NCBI GenBank assembly: GCA_016235545.1
Contig: JACRKB010000091.1
Span: 1-34,966 of the forward strand
Source: Verrucomicrobiota bacterium
Lineage (GTDB): Bacteria > Verrucomicrobiota > Verrucomicrobiia > Limisphaerales > SXTU01
Direction: 5' to 3'
DNA: 34,966 bases
The first letter of the stretch is position 1, and each line of letters begins with the position of its first letter. Of this stretch, positions 1,037-33,065 are shown one piece after another. The position numbers were made by a program, and so were the translations under genes. The notes beneath the pieces are model-generated. The model ran no database searches. It saw nothing but the letters and a program-made list of their open reading frames with translations, and was not told where the DNA came from.

Positions 1037-1141
1037 GTGGTCAGCCTCTCCGAAATCATCATCCTCGCAGTGCTGGTCGCCATCGGCATCGGCTGCTGGC
1101 TGGTCTTCAGCCGCAGCTCGGGTGAGAAGAAGGATGAGTGA
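1037..1141 (+). CDS. Putative 34-aa single-pass membrane microprotein
   Basis: GTG start 4 nt after the permease stop; translates VVSLSEIIILAVLVAIGIGCWLVFSRSSGEKKDE* with one hydrophobic helix and a charged tail; absent from the ORF track because it is short. Confidence 0.55.
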   Translation: MVSLSEIIILAVLVAIGIGCWLVFSRSSGEKKDE

Positions 1142-1146
1142 GCGTC

Positions 1147-1221
1147 CGTGCCGGCGACTTGCAGTCGCCGCTTCACTCGGACGCGAGAATCAAAGACCGT
1201 GACTGCAAGTCGCCGGCACGG
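1147..1221. repeat. Palindromic repeat family P1 (CGTGCCGGCGAYTTGCARTCGCC arms)
   Basis: cgtgccggcgacttgcagtcgcc...gactgcaagtcgccggcacgg inverted arms; a second full copy at 25355-25430 and a half copy at 13930-13959. Confidence 0.9.
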
Positions 1222-6384: not shown

Positions 6385-7434
6385 CTACGGCTTTGCGGGC
6401 AATCCGGGCGGCAGCGGCGGCAGCGGGCCGGCACCCGGTGGCAGCGGGGGAAATTCTATGACGACCTTCCGCCATGCGGCGCGCTCGGACTCCGGCATCT
6501 CCTTCCACTGCTTCGCGTTCGCGTAGAACTGCGCCTGCTGCCCCGGCGTCATCTGGCCGATCTGCTTCAGCGCGGTGATGCAGGCGGCGCGTTCCCCGGC
6601 GGTGAGGTGCTCGAACTGCTCCAGCGTGCGTGCGGTCTCCGCTCGCTTTGGCTCGGGCAGCGCGGCGACGACCCTCGTCTTCGCGCGCTCGTCGAGGCGG
6701 AAGTAGTGCGTGAAGTTGTCGAGCAATTGCTCACGCTGCCGGGCGTCAAACTCCTGCCACTGCGTGAGGTTGTCCGGAACCTTCGCCTCCATTCCGGGCG
6801 GCAACGGTGGGAAGGCGTTCGGAACCGCCGGCCGCGTCATGGCTTGCAGCAGCCGCTCGTTCGTGAGGATTTCACGCTGAATCTCGGCGGGCAGCTTGTC
6901 CCACGCCGCAAGCCGCTCCTCGACGAGCGGGCGCAGGCTCTCCGGCACTGCGGAGAGCTGGGTGGCGCGCGTCGAGGGAAGTGTCGTGAGCAGAGGGTTC
7001 AAGTAATAGCGCAGCTCCGTCGCGCGCAGGCGGGCCTCGCGCTCGGCGGGCGGGAGCGTGTCATATTCGCGAAGCCGGGTGGAGAGCACCTCGCGCAGCC
7101 GAGCCGGTTTGGCGGCCAGTTCCGTGGTCCGCGCGTCCGTCCGCATGGCGAGCAAGTTGCGGAAAACGGCAACCGGATTGCGCTCCGTGTTGCTGGCAGT
7201 CTGAGCACCCGCCATCTCCACAACCAAGCAACAAGCGACGATGAAACCAGCAACTCCCCACCTCCCGGCAAGGTGAGACTCCGTCGAACCCCATTTGGCG
7301 ACGAAAACGGCGCGGGCACAGCGAGCATCTCGGGCCGGGCGCGCAGCACAGAAACTCGCTGCGCTCGCCTCGCTGCGCTCGAAATACGGCTCGACGGAGT
7401 CTCGCCCTACCGGGTTGGAGTGGATCGCATGCAT
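6385..7434 (-). CDS. DUF3106-like secreted protein, third gene of the sigma operon
   Basis: Hydrophobic VAGFIVACCLVVEMAGAQ followed by PPAERE/LPAEIQREI/MTPGQQAQFYANAKQWKEMPESERAAWR repeats; ATG 3 nt after the upstream stop. Confidence 0.65.
   Translation of the reverse strand: MHAIHSNPVGRDSVEPYFERSEASAASFCAARPARDARCARAVFVAKWGSTESHLAGRWGVAGFIVACCLVVEMAGAQTASNTERNPVAVFRNLLAMRTDARTTELAAKPARLREVLSTRLREYDTLPPAEREARLRATELRYYLNPLLTTLPSTRATQLSAVPESLRPLVEERLAAWDKLPAEIQREILTNERLLQAMTRPAVPNAFPPLPPGMEAKVPDNLTQWQEFDARQREQLLDNFTHYFRLDERAKTRVVAALPEPKRAETARTLEQFEHLTAGERAACITALKQIGQMTPGQQAQFYANAKQWKEMPESERAAWRKVVIEFPPLPPGAGPLPPLPPGLPAKP
7272..7411. repeat. Palindromic repeat family P4 (GGTAGGGCGAGACTCCGTCGAGCC ends), inside the 5' part of the 6385-7434 ORF
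   Basis: ggtgagactccgtcgaaccccatttggcgacgaa...ggctcgacggagtctcgccctacc; second copy at 18791-18922. Confidence 0.88.
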
Positions 7435-8646: not shown

Positions 8647-8837
8647 CCGGAACGATTCTTTTGCCACGGATGGAACACAGATGAAACACGGTTGGGGACG
8701 AGGAAAGGGAAACCTTTCAAGGAGACGAACACGCACATCAGACGGTGGTGGCCAACCCGGCGGGCATCGTCAAGCCAGTCGACTGCTCTTCCGTGTAAAA
8801 TCCGTGTTCCATCCGTGGCTCAACTGCATGGTTCCGG
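8647..8837. repeat. Repeat family P2, full-length 191-bp copy with CCGGAAC/GTTCCGG ends
   Basis: ccggaacgattcttttgccacggatggaacacagatgaaacacgg ... ccgtgtaaaatccgtgttccatccgtggctcaactgcatggttccgg; matches 32876-33065. Confidence 0.9.
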
Positions 8838-9598
8838 TTCAGAATATCCGCGAGGTTGGAAGCGAGGTGCTGCTGGGTTACAACCTGCCTGTGCCGAACA
8901 CGCAGCCACTCCGCCGACTCGATCAGATGCTCTCCTCCTGCGGCTATTGCAGCCGGAGCGAGGCGCGCCTGTGGGTGCGCGGCGGGCGCGTGCTCGTGGG
9001 TGGCCAGCGGGCAGAGGCGGTGGAGCAAAAGGCGCGGGCGGCGGACGTGGTCGTGGATGGCGAGCCGCTTGATTCGCCGGAGGGAATTCTCGTCTTGTTG
9101 CACAAGCCCGCCGGCCACGTCTGCTCACACGACACGAAGGAAGGCCCGCGCGTCTTTGACCTGCTGCCGCCCCGCTGGCTCAAGCGCAACCCTCCGATCA
9201 CCTCCGTGGGCCGGCTGGACAAAGACGCCACCGGCGCACTGGTCATCAGCGACCAGGGCGAGCTGGTGCATCGCTGGACTTCGCCCAAGCGGCACGTGAC
9301 CAAGCTCTACGAAGTGACAGTGGACCGCGACCTCGACGCGTCGCTTATCGGCGTCTTCGCCGCTGGCGAGCTGGTGCTGGAGGACGAGCACAAGCCGTGT
9401 CTCCCCGCGAAGCTGGAAATAGTGAGCGCCCGCGAGGCGCGGCTGGAGCTGACGGAGGGCAAGTATCACCAGGTGAAGAGGATGTTCGCCAGCCAGGGCT
9501 GGACGGTCATGCGGCTGCATCGCAGCCGCTTCGGAGAATTCGATCTGGGAGATTTGCCCGTGGGCCAATGGCGGCGGATTCATTCAGCCACGGATTGA
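8828..9598 (+). CDS. rsuA: RNA pseudouridine synthase, RsuA family
   Basis: S4 domain RLDQMLSSCGYCSRSEARLWVRGGRVLVGG; VGRLDKDATGALVISDQGELVHRWTSPKRHVTKLYEV; GKYHQVKRMF. Start is uncertain (8828 lies in a repeat; the 8624 ORF start runs through the repeat). Confidence 0.88.
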   Translation: MVPVQNIREVGSEVLLGYNLPVPNTQPLRRLDQMLSSCGYCSRSEARLWVRGGRVLVGGQRAEAVEQKARAADVVVDGEPLDSPEGILVLLHKPAGHVCSHDTKEGPRVFDLLPPRWLKRNPPITSVGRLDKDATGALVISDQGELVHRWTSPKRHVTKLYEVTVDRDLDASLIGVFAAGELVLEDEHKPCLPAKLEIVSAREARLELTEGKYHQVKRMFASQGWTVMRLHRSRFGEFDLGDLPVGQWRRIHSATD

Positions 9599-9659
9599 AC
9601 ACGGATTCGCAATCAAGCCGGTCCGGCGAACTGCGGTCCCTTCACCCGTGTTCAATCCG
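9591..9659. repeat. P2-type hairpin between convergent genes
   Basis: CGGATTGAACACGG (9591-9604) and CCGTGTTCAATCCG (9646-9659), perfect 14-bp arms. Confidence 0.88.
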
Positions 9660-9855
9660 TGTTCGTTCCACGGCCAAGTTTCTTCTCGATATGGGCGCGG
9701 AGGCACGCTGGGCAGAGGCAGTCGGTGGTGGCATCCGTCGGCATCGGGAGGCGCGGTAGTTCCATGCACCAGCAAGTATTCGCGCCGCAGTGGGCGAGGC
9801 ACTCGAAGACCGCGCCGCACGCGGGGCAGCGTTTGCTTTCGGCGTGGCGGCTCAT
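9652..9855 (-). CDS. Small cysteine-rich CWC-type protein
   Basis: 67 aa: RCPACGAVFECLAHCGANTCWCMELPRLPMPTDATTDCLCPACLRAHI; C-x2-C, CWC and C-x2-C pattern of the Cys_rich_CWC family. Confidence 0.72.
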   Translation of the reverse strand: MSRHAESKRCPACGAVFECLAHCGANTCWCMELPRLPMPTDATTDCLCPACLRAHIEKKLGRGTNTD

Positions 9856-13929: not shown

Positions 13930-13959
13930 CGTGCCGGCGATTTGCAATCGCCGACGCTA
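13930..13959. repeat. P1 half copy
   Basis: cgtgccggcgatttgcaatcgccgacgcta; contains the stop codon of the 13957-15264 gene. Confidence 0.75.
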
Positions 13960-15264
13960 TTTCAGTTTCCCCTGCATCTGGAAAACCCACGTCAGCGCCG
14001 TGTTCATCAACTGCTCGCCCGCACCAACCGCTGCGGGCGCGACCTGGTTGTCCGCGCCGTAGCCGCCCTCGGCGGCGGCCTCGATGGTTGGGAAGTATTG
14101 ATGGTAGCCGTTGCTGTAGCCGAAGAAGAACAGCCGCTCCACCCGCGCCCGCTCCCGCAGCCGGAGCGCGTGCTGGCAGAAGAACTCGCCGGACGCTCCC
14201 ACGAGTGCGGTGTCGCCGTTGAGCACTGCGACGGTGAGGCGCGGGCGGATGCCGTCGGCAAATTCATCGGCGAAATTCGCGACCAGCTCGGGGAAGAACG
14301 CGAACGAGTAGCCCAGCCGGATCAGCGGGTTGTTCAAATCGCTGCGCGACTCGAAGCGGAACCGCTCCTCGCGCACGACCAGCGAAGGCTTCGCCACCAC
14401 GGCGGGCTGGAGCGACGCCGCGAGCTTCACGACCTCGCGGGCGAGCGCCTGGCCGAAGCCGACGTGGTCCGCGTTCGTGCCTTTATTGATGGAGAGATCA
14501 CCGGATGCTCCCTGCATGAAGATGGCAGTGCCGCCAAAATCCTTCTCGACCGCCGCCTTCATCGCACCGACGTAGTCGGCGGAAAACTTCAGCGTCTGCG
14601 CCGGGAGACTCGTCGGGTGGCCGGTGAAGTTCACGAGCACGGCGAGCGGCTTGCCCGAGGTGTCATCAAAGCGCATCACGGTCAGCGAGCGGTCCACGGG
14701 CTTGAGCGGGAGCTTCGTGTGCCGGTTGCGATTGAAGCCATCGAGGTCTGCGGCGCCGGTGGCGAATTTTGCCGGGGCAAGTTTCCGGTCCGCCTCGACG
14801 ATGGCGGTGACGATGCCGTCCTCAAGCTGCTGGTAGTAGCGGATGGAAGCATCGAAACGGCCCTTGCCCTTGCCGTCCGCGTCGCTCAGTTCGAGCACCG
14901 GCCCGTGGTGCGTGTGCGAGCCGGCGACCAAGGAGTGCTCGATGCCTGCCTCGGCCTTGATGCGCTGGCGGATGTTCTGGAGGGACTTCTCCGACGGCGA
15001 GCGGCCGAGATCGAGGCCGACGATGGCGAGCTTCTTGTCACCCGCCTGGATGACGACGGCCGCCGCGTGAAGCGTATCGATCGCTCCTGTCGAGAGCATG
15101 TCATGGCGCGCGCCGTATCCCCACATCGGCACCGCCTCCTTCGGTGTGATGTCGCGCTTGGCGGCCCCGGCCTTGAAGACAGCTTCGGCGGCGAGACCTT
15201 CGGAGGCGAGGAACAGACCGGACCCGAGTGTGAGCCAGATGACGCAGCGGCGGCAGGAATTCAT
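13957..15264 (-). CDS. Secreted neutral/alkaline non-lysosomal ceramidase-like protein (paralogue)
   Basis: MNSCRRCVIWLTLGSGLFLASEGLAAEA signal peptide; FKAGAAKRDITPKEAVPMWGYG, AGSHTHHGPVLE, VNFTGHPTSLP, MQGASGDL. Confidence 0.85.
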   Translation of the reverse strand: MNSCRRCVIWLTLGSGLFLASEGLAAEAVFKAGAAKRDITPKEAVPMWGYGARHDMLSTGAIDTLHAAAVVIQAGDKKLAIVGLDLGRSPSEKSLQNIRQRIKAEAGIEHSLVAGSHTHHGPVLELSDADGKGKGRFDASIRYYQQLEDGIVTAIVEADRKLAPAKFATGAADLDGFNRNRHTKLPLKPVDRSLTVMRFDDTSGKPLAVLVNFTGHPTSLPAQTLKFSADYVGAMKAAVEKDFGGTAIFMQGASGDLSINKGTNADHVGFGQALAREVVKLAASLQPAVVAKPSLVVREERFRFESRSDLNNPLIRLGYSFAFFPELVANFADEFADGIRPRLTVAVLNGDTALVGASGEFFCQHALRLRERARVERLFFFGYSNGYHQYFPTIEAAAEGGYGADNQVAPAAVGAGEQLMNTALTWVFQMQGKLK

Positions 15265-15339
15265 GGACCGGATTGTTGCGTGCTGGCGCGCAGTCCGCCA
15301 GCAAACTTCACAGGGCAGTCCATACGGGGGTGCAGCTTG

Positions 15340-15506
15340 GCCAACATTTCTTTCGCCACGGATGGGGATGAGGAAAAGGCAACCCTCCGAGAAGCCGAAC
15401 GCGCACACCAAAAAGCGGTGCCGGACGCGGCAGGCAGCTTCGGGACACTTGCTGCGCTTCCGCGCGTAACCCGTGTTCCATTCGCGGCTCAACTGGATGA
15501 ATCTGG
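15340..15506. repeat. P2 degenerate copy
   Basis: tttcgccacggatggggatgaggaaaaggc...cccgtgttccattcgcggctcaactggatgaatctgg. Confidence 0.8.
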
Positions 15507-15636
15507 CTTAGGTTCTTTGCGACCTTGTCCGAGGCACTGCTCCAAACCCGCGGAGTTTCAACATGAATTGCCGTGTGTTTCACCCACGCCTATTCAAGCG
15601 GAAGCCCTGCTGGCTTCTCCGCAGCCGCAAGGTCCG

Positions 15637-15662
15637 TTGCAAGAAACTGAGATGCGCCCTCA
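15637..15662. repeat. P3 partial copy
   Basis: ttgcaagaaactgagatgcgccctca, shared with 6349-6370 and with the reverse complement at 28509-28534. Confidence 0.8.
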
Positions 15663-16178
15663 GCGCCGCCACATCCGCCAGACTGCCAGCAACGAGTAAA
15701 ACGCGACGGCCACGGCATAAGCGACCATCCCCATCCCAACAGCCATCGGGACGGACGGCCATTCGCCCGAGAGCACCACCGCTCCGCCAACGAGTCCGAA
15801 GAGGAGCGTCTCGCCCAGCACGCTGACGAGAAACGAACGGCGACTTGAATGGCTCATCGCATCGCTCACCAGCATCGCGTAGCCCGTCTCGCCCAGCGCG
15901 CGCATGAGCCAGGCGGATTTGAAATTTCGTGCCGCCACCAGAAGGCTGGTTGTGACCAATATCAACGCGGCCAGCGGCCAGTGCGCCGCCGCGAGGCACA
16001 GCAGGATGTTGAAGCCGATGCCCCACTTCCAGCCAAGCCGCTTCGCCAGGGGGTTCGCCTCCAGCGCGAGCGTGGGTGTCGCAAACCAGGTGCTGAGGAA
16101 ATCCATCCCGCGCGCGAACACCAGCAGGCCGAGCGTGATGAGGTAGTCACGGCTGGCGAAGGGGACTGAGTCTTCCAC
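15660..16178 (-). CDS. Conserved multi-TM membrane protein of unknown function
   Basis: 172 aa, several hydrophobic helices (ITLGLLVFARGMDFLSTWFATPTLALEANPLAKRLGWKWGIGFNILLCLAAA). Confidence 0.75.
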   Translation of the reverse strand: MEDSVPFASRDYLITLGLLVFARGMDFLSTWFATPTLALEANPLAKRLGWKWGIGFNILLCLAAAHWPLAALILVTTSLLVAARNFKSAWLMRALGETGYAMLVSDAMSHSSRRSFLVSVLGETLLFGLVGGAVVLSGEWPSVPMAVGMGMVAYAVAVAFYSLLAVWRMWRR

Positions 16179-18790: not shown

Positions 18791-18922
18791 GGTAGGGCGA
18801 GACTCCATCGAGCCACCATTCCAAGCGCAGGGAGCCTGTCAGCTGAACGCTGCGGAGATGAAACTCGCTGTGCTCGCGCCTCCTTCGTCAGCAAATGGGG
18901 CTCGACGGAGTCTCGCCCTACC
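18791..18922. repeat. Palindromic repeat family P4, intergenic copy
   Basis: ggtagggcgagactccatcgagcc ... ggctcgacggagtctcgccctacc. Confidence 0.9.
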
Positions 18923-20012
18923 GGCTCGTCAGCGCCCCCGCCAACGACGCGAGCTGCGCGCGCGTGTGCTCGCTGCTCACCACGAAGCGGAAGAACCCGC
19001 CCTCCGGCCCGCCGGGATACCGGATGAACGGCGGGTGAATCCCCGCCGCCAGCAGCCGCCTTTTGAGCCGCGCCGCCTCCTTCGCCGACACGGGAATCAC
19101 CGGCACGATGGGGCCGGGCGCGTCTGGCAACTCCATTCCACCCGCGCGCAAGCGTTCCTTCAGCCACGCCGCGTTTGCGTGCAGGCGTGCCTGCAAACTC
19201 GGATTCGCGCGGAAGATGTGCAGCGCCTCCAACGCCCCCGCCGCCAGCGGCAGCGGCACGGGCGTCGCACCAGTGAAGCACCGGCTCCTCGCCAGAACCG
19301 CCTCCGCCACCGCGCGACTGCCGACGATGGCCCCGCCAAAAGCGCCGAACGCCTTGCTCAAGGTCACCGTCTGGATCACCCGCGCGTCCTGCACGCCGCA
19401 GTGCGACGGCGTCCCCTGCCCTGCCTCCCCCAGCACGCCAGCGCCGTGCGCGTCATCCACGAGCAGCGCCGCCCTGGCCGGCAACACCGCGAGATACTCC
19501 GCCAGCGGCGCGACCGACCCGTCGTGGGAAAACATCCCGTCCGTGAAGACAATGGGCCGCGCGCCCCGGCCCAGCCCGCGCAATTGCCGCGTGAAATCCG
19601 CCACATCGCGATGCGCGAACGGCACGACCGTCGCCCCCAGCAGCACCGCCGCATCCGCGACGCTCGTGTGGGACCGCGCATCCATCAGGACATGGGTGAA
19701 CTCACCTCGGAGCGCCTGCGCCACGGCGAGGTTCGTCATGTAGCCGTTGTCCACCAGCACGGCGCGCTGCGCATGGAAGAATCGCGCCAACTCGCGCTCC
19801 AGCCGCTCGTAGAGCGAGTGGTTCCCGGTCGTCTTGCGAGAGGAAGCCACGTTCAGCCCGAACGCCTTCAGCCCGCGCCGGACGGCGGCGAGCACGCGCG
19901 GATGGCTGGCGAGCCGGTAGTAATCGCACCCTGCGAAATAGACCAGCCGCCGGCCGCGTCGGCGGACAAAGACCCGATCCACTTGCTGCAACGTCTCGGC
20001 GGTGTGCTTCAT
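18918..20012 (-). CDS. PLP-dependent alpha-oxoamine synthase family protein (BioF/KBL-like)
   Basis: [57 protein letters not shown] (PLP lysine). Confidence 0.9.
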
Positions 20013-24206: not shown

Positions 24207-25877
24207 TCAAGGATGCGCCCGGACGAAAACTTGGAGCGACACGGAAATCGCGGGCTCAACGGGGCGCCAGCGTGAATCGCGCGCGAGGGACTCGGCCTGC
24301 TGCGAGCCGCGACGCGACACCACGACCCGCGCGCCCGCCGACGCAAACTCCGCAGGGCCAGCCAGCACGTCGTCCCCAAGCCATCGCTCGCCAAGGAGGA
24401 ACGCGGTGTAAATCCCCGAGCGTCCGCCGGGCAGAAGTCCGCTCCCGGCGAGCGGGCCGGGCTGCCCGCTGGCCTGCAACCGCGCTGCCAGATCGTGAGC
24501 CACATGGCTGGCCTGATTGGGAATTCCAGCCAGCGCGGCCGCGAGCCAGATCATCGCCGGCACTGCAAAGGAATAGTTCACTACACCAAAGCCCGCCCGC
24601 ACCCGCGCGGACCAGCCCCACGCCCCAACGGCGAGCACCCACAGAAACGGCAGCGCCGGAAAAAAATACCGGTTGTCCTCCGCCATCACAAAGAACGGCA
24701 GATACAACGCGCCCAGCGCGACCACCGGCACCAGAGCCCAACACCAGCGCTGTCGCCGCAAGCACCGCCTGCATTTCACCATGCAACCGCCCGCAATCAA
24801 CACTGCCAGCCCGCTGATTCCCAGCACGTCAAACGTCCCCAGCCATCGCCGCCACAGCGGCAACTCCGCTCCGGTCAGCCACGCACGCCACGGGTTCAAC
24901 CAGTCCCAGCAAATGCCGATGTTGTCTCCGACCACCGCGAGTTGATGCCGGAAGTTCTCACCGCCCGCGAATGGCGACCACCGCACATACGCCATCCGCG
25001 ACGGCTCCTCCCACTGCGTCACACGTCCCGCGTCCGGCTGGTGCAGGGTCGTCATTGCCCGATGATGACCTGCCTGCTCGCCCGGCCCTGCAAGCGCGTG
25101 CGCGATAGGCCCCGTCGTTGAGAAGGTGAACTGCCCGTAGTGCAACGACAGCACTGCGATCCACGGTGCCGCGACCAGCGCAGTGCCGAGCCATGCCAGC
25201 CCCAGCCGCGCCGCCAGCTCCGCGCGCAACTCCCGCCGCCCGCTCATCGCAAGGACTGCCAGCCCCGCCGTCGTCAACAGCGCCAGCGGGAGCGCCACCG
25301 CCTTCGCCAGATACGCCAGGCCCCACCAAACACCCACCGCGATGGCGTGCCGCGCGTGCCGGCGACTTGCAATCGCCGCCCCCTCTCGTTTCGCGTCCGG
25401 CAGGACGGCAACTGCAAGTCGCCGGCACGGGGCAAGAAACATTTTCACCGTCGCGCTCACAGCCAACGCCACCAGCCCCGCCAACAACAAATCCGGCGTG
25501 ATGTGCCGCACCGACCAGAACACCGACCACACAGCCGCGATGCAAGCGCCCGTCCTCAGCGCCACGTTTGGGAGCCGGAACGAGCGGAACACCGACAACG
25601 CCCCGGCGAGAAACACCACTCCCGAAAACGCCATCACCACACGCGCCGCCACCAACGGGACCGCGCCCGCCTTCAGCAGCGGCACCATCAACCAGCTCAC
25701 GAGCGGCCCCCAATAGCCCGTCACCGCCAGCTCGGTCTGTCCGGCTGCGTAGTATCCAGCGATGCGGCAGTAAGCCACCGCATCGGGATTAAGCTGGTGC
25801 AGATTTCGCCACGCCGCGACCGCGAGCAGCACGGCCTGCACGGCGAAGAGCCAGCGAAGTTGATGGCGGACATTCAT
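24207..25877 (-). CDS. Multi-TM glycosyltransferase-like membrane protein (GT39/PMT/ArnT-type)
   Basis: LHQLNPDAVAYCRIAGYYAAGQTELAVTGYWGPLVSWLMVPLL, HITPDLLLAGLVAL, GLAYLAKAVALPLALL, YLPFFVMAEDNRYFFPALPFLWVLA. Confidence 0.8.
   Translation of the reverse strand: MNVRHQLRWLFAVQAVLLAVAAWRNLHQLNPDAVAYCRIAGYYAAGQTELAVTGYWGPLVSWLMVPLLKAGAVPLVAARVVMAFSGVVFLAGALSVFRSFRLPNVALRTGACIAAVWSVFWSVRHITPDLLLAGLVALAVSATVKMFLAPCRRLAVAVLPDAKREGAAIASRRHARHAIAVGVWWGLAYLAKAVALPLALLTTAGLAVLAMSGRRELRAELAARLGLAWLGTALVAAPWIAVLSLHYGQFTFSTTGPIAHALAGPGEQAGHHRAMTTLHQPDAGRVTQWEEPSRMAYVRWSPFAGGENFRHQLAVVGDNIGICWDWLNPWRAWLTGAELPLWRRWLGTFDVLGISGLAVLIAGGCMVKCRRCLRRQRWCWALVPVVALGALYLPFFVMAEDNRYFFPALPFLWVLAVGAWGWSARVRAGFGVVNYSFAVPAMIWLAAALAGIPNQASHVAHDLAARLQASGQPGPLAGSGLLPGGRSGIYTAFLLGERWLGDDVLAGPAEFASAGARVVVSRRGSQQAESLARDSRWRPVEPAISVSLQVFVRAHP
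25355..25430. repeat. P1 palindromic element inserted in frame within the glycosyltransferase CDS
   Basis: cgtgccggcgacttgcaatcgccg...actgcaagtcgccggcacgg; arms match the intergenic copy 1147-1221. Confidence 0.92.
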
Positions 25878-28465: not shown

Positions 28466-28508
28466 GCGCGCGTTTTACCACGGCCAGGCGTGTGGCGACA
28501 GCCGATAC

Positions 28509-28602
28509 TGAGGGCGCATCTCAGTTTCTTGCAGGCGGAATGGTGCGAGCGATCCAGTTGGGCCGCTCCTCCTGCTCGCAATCCTGATCCTAATCCTGCT
28601 CC
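28509..28602. repeat. Repeat family P3 copy
   Basis: tgagggcgcatctcagtttcttgcaggcggaatggtgcgagcgatccagttgggccgctcctcctgctcgcaatcctgatcctaatcctgctcc. Confidence 0.88.
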
Positions 28603-32775: not shown

Positions 32776-32875
32776 CAGGAGGGGAGGATGTTTATTAGGA
32801 GAGCAGGAAGGCAGGAGAGAAACGCTACGAGACAAAGGCCGCCCACCTTCCCTCCTGCCTTCCGGCCCTGCTCAT
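32776..32875. repeat. P5 copy
   Basis: ttattaggagagcaggaaggcaggagag...ccaccttccctcctgccttccggccctgctcat. Confidence 0.75.
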
Positions 32876-33065
32876 CCGGAACCATACAGTTGAGCCACGC
32901 AAGGAACACGGATAAAACACGGAGCAGCAGGCGACTGTCTTGACGATGCCTGCCTGTTCTCATCCACCGTTTGGTGGGCGCGTTCAGCTCTCTCGGAGGA
33001 TGCGTCCTCCTCGTCCCTTTCCGTGTTTCTTCTGGGTTCCATCCGTGGCCAAAAACTCGTTTCGG
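32876..33065. repeat. P2 full-length copy (190 bp), inverted relative to 8647-8837
   Basis: ccggaaccatacagttgagccacgcaaggaacacggataaaacacggagcagcaggcgactgtcttgacgatgcctgcc...ggttccatccgtggccaaaaactcgtttcgg. Confidence 0.9.

Follow-up and report, generated by a model that had tools for sequence, protein, structure and literature searches.

The glycosyltransferase-like gene at positions 24207-25877 carries an in-frame insertion that is, with a probability of about 0.85, one copy of a mobile, genus-specific dimer of REP-like palindromes (REPIN/BIME-like). Members of the repeat family are dispersed, their hairpins are kept, sites without a copy exist and the reading frame of the gene is open. The gene is part of a stretch of 34,966 nucleotides (the window), which is contig C23 of the 5.0 Mb draft genome (MAG) G000. 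The repeat is referred to as the GTGCC family, and the following features were distinguished:

24207..25877, minus strand: host gene, 556 codons, with a predicted ArnT-like GT-C membrane glycosyltransferase fold (open frame, orthologues, structure model)
25355..25429, no strand: in-frame REP-like dimer, GTGCC family, encoding APCRRLAVAVLPDAKREGAAIASRRHARHA together with flanking codons
25355..25377, plus strand: dimer arm 1, CGTGCCGGCGACTTGCAATCGCC, 23 nt, family consensus with one mismatch
25378..25406, no strand: spacer separating the two arms, 29 nt, sequence not conserved across the family
25407..25429, minus strand: dimer arm 2, CGTGCCGGCGACTTGCAGTTGCC, 23 nt, family consensus with one mismatch
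1147..1220, no strand: second dimer of the GTGCC family, spacing 51
1134..1202, plus strand: putative 22-codon relic frame, MSERPCRRLAVAASLGRENQRP, located where the GNAT gene begins in congeners; it stops within the dimer
13930..13952, plus strand: single arm of the GTGCC family, just past the 3' end of gene 13960-15267 (minus strand)

The arms of the in-gene dimer are inverted, with a start-to-start spacing of 52 nt. Five arm matches with up to three mismatches were present in the window, compared with 0.02 expected from shuffles. Folding of the 77-nt strand gave z = -5.6 for the plus and -6.6 for the minus strand, and no shuffled sequence folded equally well. The original prediction of inverted 23-nt arms lying in frame in the coding sequence 24207-25877 was borne out, as the 556-codon frame is open, and the peptide that it quoted for the insert was correct on translation. 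It had also described the loop motif CGGACGCGA as shared with the copy at 1147. This motif occurred within one mismatch in only two of 38 dimer spacers, those of the copies at 25355 and 1147, and was rejected as a mark of the family. Other repeats in the window included dispersed sequences around ATCCGTGTTCCATCCGTGGC and similar strings at 8647-8869, 9583-9674, 15452-15527 and 32844-33065, some of them long inverted pairs. A 26-nt perfect inverted repeat, CTGAGGGCGCATCTCAGTTTCTTGCA, was present at 15638-15663 and 28508-28533, 12.8 kb apart.

Searches with the arm GCCGGCGACTTGCARTCGCC, allowing two mismatches, gave 149 matches in G000 (77 and 72 on the two strands) and none with the reversed pattern as control. 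Arms were present in all ten other sampled genomes of the genus, with 6 to 190 each. Outside the genus, 47 genomes from other families of the same order held 0-3 arms per genome, and a further 389 genomes of the phylum yielded one two-mismatch match in each of two genomes. The GTGCC family is dispersed and bound to one freshwater verrucomicrobial genus, being nearly absent elsewhere in the phylum. Mapping of 61 stretches around copies in G000 (370 kb) covered 125 arms in 77 clusters, including 38 dimers. The conserved arm core, GTGCCGGCGACTTGCAGTCGCCG followed by (T/C)C, folds as a stem of 7-8 bp with a 3-nt loop; the stem starts with C-G and G-C pairs and is preceded on its 5' side by the conserved string GTGC(C) (G 0.93, T 0.91, G 0.98, C 0.94). 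Stem positions covary, A-T being replaced by G-C, and C-G by T-A or G-C. Among 77 distinct arms, 30 doubly compensated stem pairs were counted, against a mean of 11.5 and a maximum of 20 in shuffles that ignore the relatedness of the arms. Each arm is a hairpin in itself with compensatory changes, which makes the unit a dimer built from REP-like palindromes. The 38 dimers showed spacings of 45-52 and 72-75 nt, with one of 93, and their spacer sequence was little conserved. Many single arms occurred besides the dimers, and some copies were collapsed into a single hairpin, CGTGCCGGCGACTGCAAGTCGCCGGCACG. Spacing in multiples of three was considered as a sign of coding origin and rejected: it was found in about 27 of the 38 dimers in G000, intergenic ones included, and not clearly in two congeners.

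All ten congeners, and a minority of the members of the order, had an orthologue of the host gene; one of the congener sequences was partial. The stretch before the conserved WWG motif comprised 42 codons in G000 and 19 in the congener G003 and the outgroup G039; the expectation that orthologues without the insert would be about 25 residues shorter thus agreed with a difference of 23 codons. The loop was occupied in most congeners as well, by different inserts that included an unrelated palindrome. It comprised 35-41 codons in G002, G008, G009 and G010, where the DNA read CGTAGCCGCCGAGGTGAGGAGGCGGA...TCCGC[C/A]TCCTGACCTCGGCGGCTACGG. This palindrome is a member of a GTAG-tagged family, for which G000 gave 24 matches and G010 gave 245; the family's matches at G008:C81:4097/4142 and G002:C214:10643/10706 fall within the orthologous host genes. 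The right flank, CGGCACGCCATC in G000 (compare CGGCATGCCATC in G007), is missing from the GTAG-bearing alleles, which suggests that the GTGCC and GTAG palindromes at this loop were separate insertions. In a tree of four proteins, G000 was sister to G008, G009 and G010 (support 99 for the group and 80 within it, with weak deeper nodes). The loop of G001 held a half-relic of the GTGCC family with five mismatches in 24 positions, matched in quality by one of 20000 mononucleotide shuffles. G007 (L043 / L244) carried a 46-residue insert in the same loop that was single-copy in that genome; as a dispersed repeat it was rejected, the 162-nt query matching itself alone in G007 and nothing in G000.

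Replacement and decay of inserts were also seen at other orthologous sites. The copy at 1147-1221 had been described as intergenic. In congeners, however, a GNAT gene (ATGAGTAAG...) begins at this place, in several of them with a palindrome in frame, and the dimer at 1147-1220 is better read as the relic of a former in-frame N-terminal insertion in the GNAT gene. The site lies behind the permease gene 184-1032. A GTGCC copy is in frame there in G001 (collapsed), G002 and G003; half of a GTAG-family element is in frame in G009, and a GTAG dimer in G010 has a frame closing at codon 39. G004 and G005 have no palindrome, and in G000 the dimer remains while the GNAT gene does not follow. In uvrB, a short linker with no insert was found in G001, G008, G009 and G010. 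The linker was occupied by a GTGCC dimer in G000, G004 and G006, by a dimer of a third palindrome, GGTAGGGCGAGACTCCGTCGAGCC, in G005, and by an insert matched to no family in G007. Because the occupied alleles share additional flanking residues (KASARA...DG), the linker may already have been longer before insertion, or several events may have occurred. KsgA and a histidine kinase contained inherited, decaying GTGCC dimers in several congeners. In ksgA of G006 (L231 / L230), a deletion extends from the element into the gene, with WKLVANL before PYSVASP lost and the NLPY motif partly missing; it could be real or an assembly error. Altogether, three of the five sites examined held unrelated palindromes in different species. 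The GGTAGGGCGAGACTCCGTCGAGCC family forms two inverted dimers in the window (7264-7414 and 18791-18924) and has 31 arms in the mapped G000 stretches, 17 within called genes, with at least five in the AddB-like L150.

One wider interpretation, put forward tentatively and more doubtful than probable, is that in this genus several palindrome families, unrelated to one another, serve interchangeably as in-frame linkers at a fixed set of permissive protein sites that are colonised, lost and recolonised. Short mobile palindromes would then keep supplying new protein sequence, in part under selection for innocuous frames.

A search for further in-frame copies elsewhere in the genome had been proposed with the original prediction, and such copies were found. 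With genes called by a dicodon model trained on the 61 mapped stretches, 24 of the 77 clusters (31%) were inside open genes and 50 between assigned neighbours, the remainder being at ends. Neighbours of the intergenic clusters formed 34 tandem, 11 convergent and five divergent pairs. Nearly all intragenic clusters had coding signal on both sides. Host proteins recognised by Pfam included UvrB, KsgA (RrnaAD), TsaD, a Mur ligase, CheA-like and AddB-like proteins, a ketoacyl synthase, a glycogen debranching enzyme, Lnt, an MFS transporter and a GAF histidine kinase. The called gene L129 is among the 24 and was left out of the frame counts. One frame was preferred: 15 of 19 forward arms in genes read GDLQSP (p about 6e-5 against one third) and 12 of 14 reverse arms read GDCKSP or near variants (p about 8e-5 against one third), the two arms of one dimer not being independent in these counts. 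This preference, the strong folding and the dN/dS below 1 in inherited inserts could mean that the palindrome is retained for its use to the cell, either through an RNA hairpin that it forms in the transcript or through a peptide linker that is under selection. Yet constraint on the inserts, although estimated from small counts, was weaker than on their own proteins in most comparisons, most clearly in uvrB with a dN/dS of 0.34-0.84 in the insert and 0.04 in the protein. Moreover, orthologues lack the element or carry an unrelated one, purging of worse peptides accounts for the frame bias, and the window copy itself is in the rarest frame (PCRRLAVAV...AAIASRRHA). Retention for cellular use is therefore considered improbable.

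The host gene might instead be decaying, with the insertion merely unpurged. Its codon-model score is low (45 over 1671 nt), and no GNAT gene follows the other dimer of the window in G000. Against this, the 556 codons contain no stop or frameshift, dN/dS outside the insert was 0.24-0.37 in comparison with four congeners, the invariant residues of the protein are kept across 18 orthologues and the same loop tolerates inserts in several species. The possibility of a pseudogene, which the original prediction had named as its refutation, thus found no support in the sequence, and decay appears very unlikely. A Pfam search of the host protein returned no family. The AlphaFold model built from 18 sequences had a mean pLDDT of 87.6, and its best PDB match in Foldseek was ArnT (5f15, E 4e-7, TM 0.52), followed by oligosaccharyltransferases and Pmt4. 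The model indicates an ArnT-like integral membrane protein with a GT-C glycosyltransferase fold. Flanked by the predicted helices 129-148 and 165-191, the insert is the least confident part of the model (pLDDT 56-61). It comprises about 25 residues, is rich in arginine and has a net charge of about +5. Cytoplasmic loops of membrane proteins are expected to be positively charged (positive-inside rule), and the active site of GT-C enzymes is expected on the periplasmic side. The insert loop is probably cytoplasmic, judging from the helix count from a cytoplasmic N-terminus, with which the positive charge agrees. Those relatives of the gene that carry names came from verrucomicrobial metagenome bins with the labels Pedosphaera and Limisphaerales, and the lineage of G000 most probably belongs there. 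The public records of L092, L093 and L098, from verrucomicrobial bins, are titled Klebsiella pneumoniae or Akkermansia muciniphila and are apparently mislabelled.

Skipping of the insert during expression, by translational bypass or a splicing-like removal, would suit the strong hairpin across it; such a process would not need frame or stop-free DNA, yet the called genes with inserts are open (the gene caller being blind to closed ones), and we regard it as extremely unlikely. A misjoin of two contigs at the repeat, of the kind that repeats provoke in draft MAGs, has hardly any probability either, as both flanks are co-linear with single orthologous genes in congeners and the outgroup and several congeners have in-frame family members at other orthologous sites.

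For the favoured reading, a mobile dimer inserted in frame, a hairpin-recognising single-strand transposase (Y1/HuH-type) would copy GTGCC dimers in trans. Copies that keep the frame and land in tolerant linkers would survive selection. In the host protein, the insert would lengthen a cytoplasmic loop between two transmembrane helices, opposite the periplasmic active site, and may affect function little. Tolerant linkers would be struck repeatedly, leaving unrelated palindromes at one place in different species. Y1 transposases (RAYT, TnpAREP), which recognise a hairpin with a GTAG tag, are considered the movers of REPIN/BIME elements (PMC8266576). The genus gave 17 Y1_Tnp matches (three in G000 and 14 in congeners), and no GTGCC arm was present within about 1.5 kb of any of them; some of these flanks ended at contig ends. 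Two of the 17 loci carried other inverted repeats of GTAG type: the Y1 transposase genes L031 (G000 C138) and L161 (G002) are flanked by GTAGCCACGGGTG and GTAGCCGTGGGTGA in a REPtron-like arrangement. The GTGCC family has no GTAG tag and no flanking Y1 gene was found, so that its movement by a RAYT in trans is an inference. A search for a parent element of the family (MITE-type origin) found none. Linkers around GTGCC copies have diverged and the insertion ends are blurred.

In-frame palindromes were already known from Rickettsia (PMC10969869, PMC3733652), where the Rickettsia palindromic elements (RPEs) are about 150 bp long and encode conserved peptides. In-frame REP dimers encoding 20-30 amino acids were likewise known from many genes of Opitutus terrae, a member of the same phylum, and other species (Di Nocera et al. 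2013, PMC3733652). The latter include the repair genes uvrA and uvrB, and two Xanthomonas species have different REPs at about the same recB site (PMC3733652). The prediction for the window had been a dispersed palindrome that, as in Rickettsia, had entered a working gene in frame, and the shorter loops of G003 and G039, the further in-frame copies and the purifying dN/dS are consistent with it. The analogy held for the insertion habit, the palindromes entering unrelated protein genes with a similar argument for tolerance; the closest precedent is formed by the intragenic REP dimers of O. terrae and not by Rickettsia alone. By their description, RPEs differ from the GTGCC dimers, which are about 70-100 nt long, have variable spacers and occur in one verrucomicrobial genus. 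The O. terrae dimers are also dispersed and in frame in many genes, including repair genes. Intragenic dimers of that study are GTAG- or CGTC-tagged, and the CGTC superfamily has AT pairs at the stem ends and is without a known transposase (PMC3733652). In the window family, by contrast, GTGC(C) precedes the hairpin on its 5' side and the stem ends in GC pairs; it shows neither the GTAG string nor the terminal CGTC with AT at stem positions 1-2. A CGTC-like string at the inner 3' end of many GTGCC arms would be compatible with a distant relation to the CGTC type. As in REPs generally, hairpin palindromes of 20-50 nt are present in many dispersed copies, mainly between tandem or convergent neighbours, although 24 of the 77 clusters are in genes. 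With REPIN/BIME (PMC3116915, PMC8266576) the family shares two inverted REP hairpins with a short spacer, a 3-nt loop and a conserved 5' string; it differs in the string itself and in that no RAYT flanked by the same repeat was found. The GTAG-tagged palindrome of the genus, GTAGCCGCCGAGGTSAGGAGGCGGA, is also dimeric, dispersed and in frame at the host loop, but its arm sequence is unrelated, and the GTAG tag and a frame closed by TAG belong to that family.

New are the GTGCC family itself, genus-bound, of neither GTAG nor CGTC type and without a flanking transposase found, the high intragenic share and the recurrent occupation, within one genus, of the same sites by as many as three families. 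The in-frame habit recurs in many other genes and in at least two other repeat families. The known range of in-frame palindrome insertion thereby grows beyond Rickettsia and scattered REP cases and takes in a verrucomicrobial genus from freshwater in which about a third of the mapped copies are in genes. Ten sequenced congeners allow inserts to be followed site by site as they are gained, decay, collapse and are replaced, and such tracing makes it testable whether the inserts are harmless passengers or suppliers of useful linkers.
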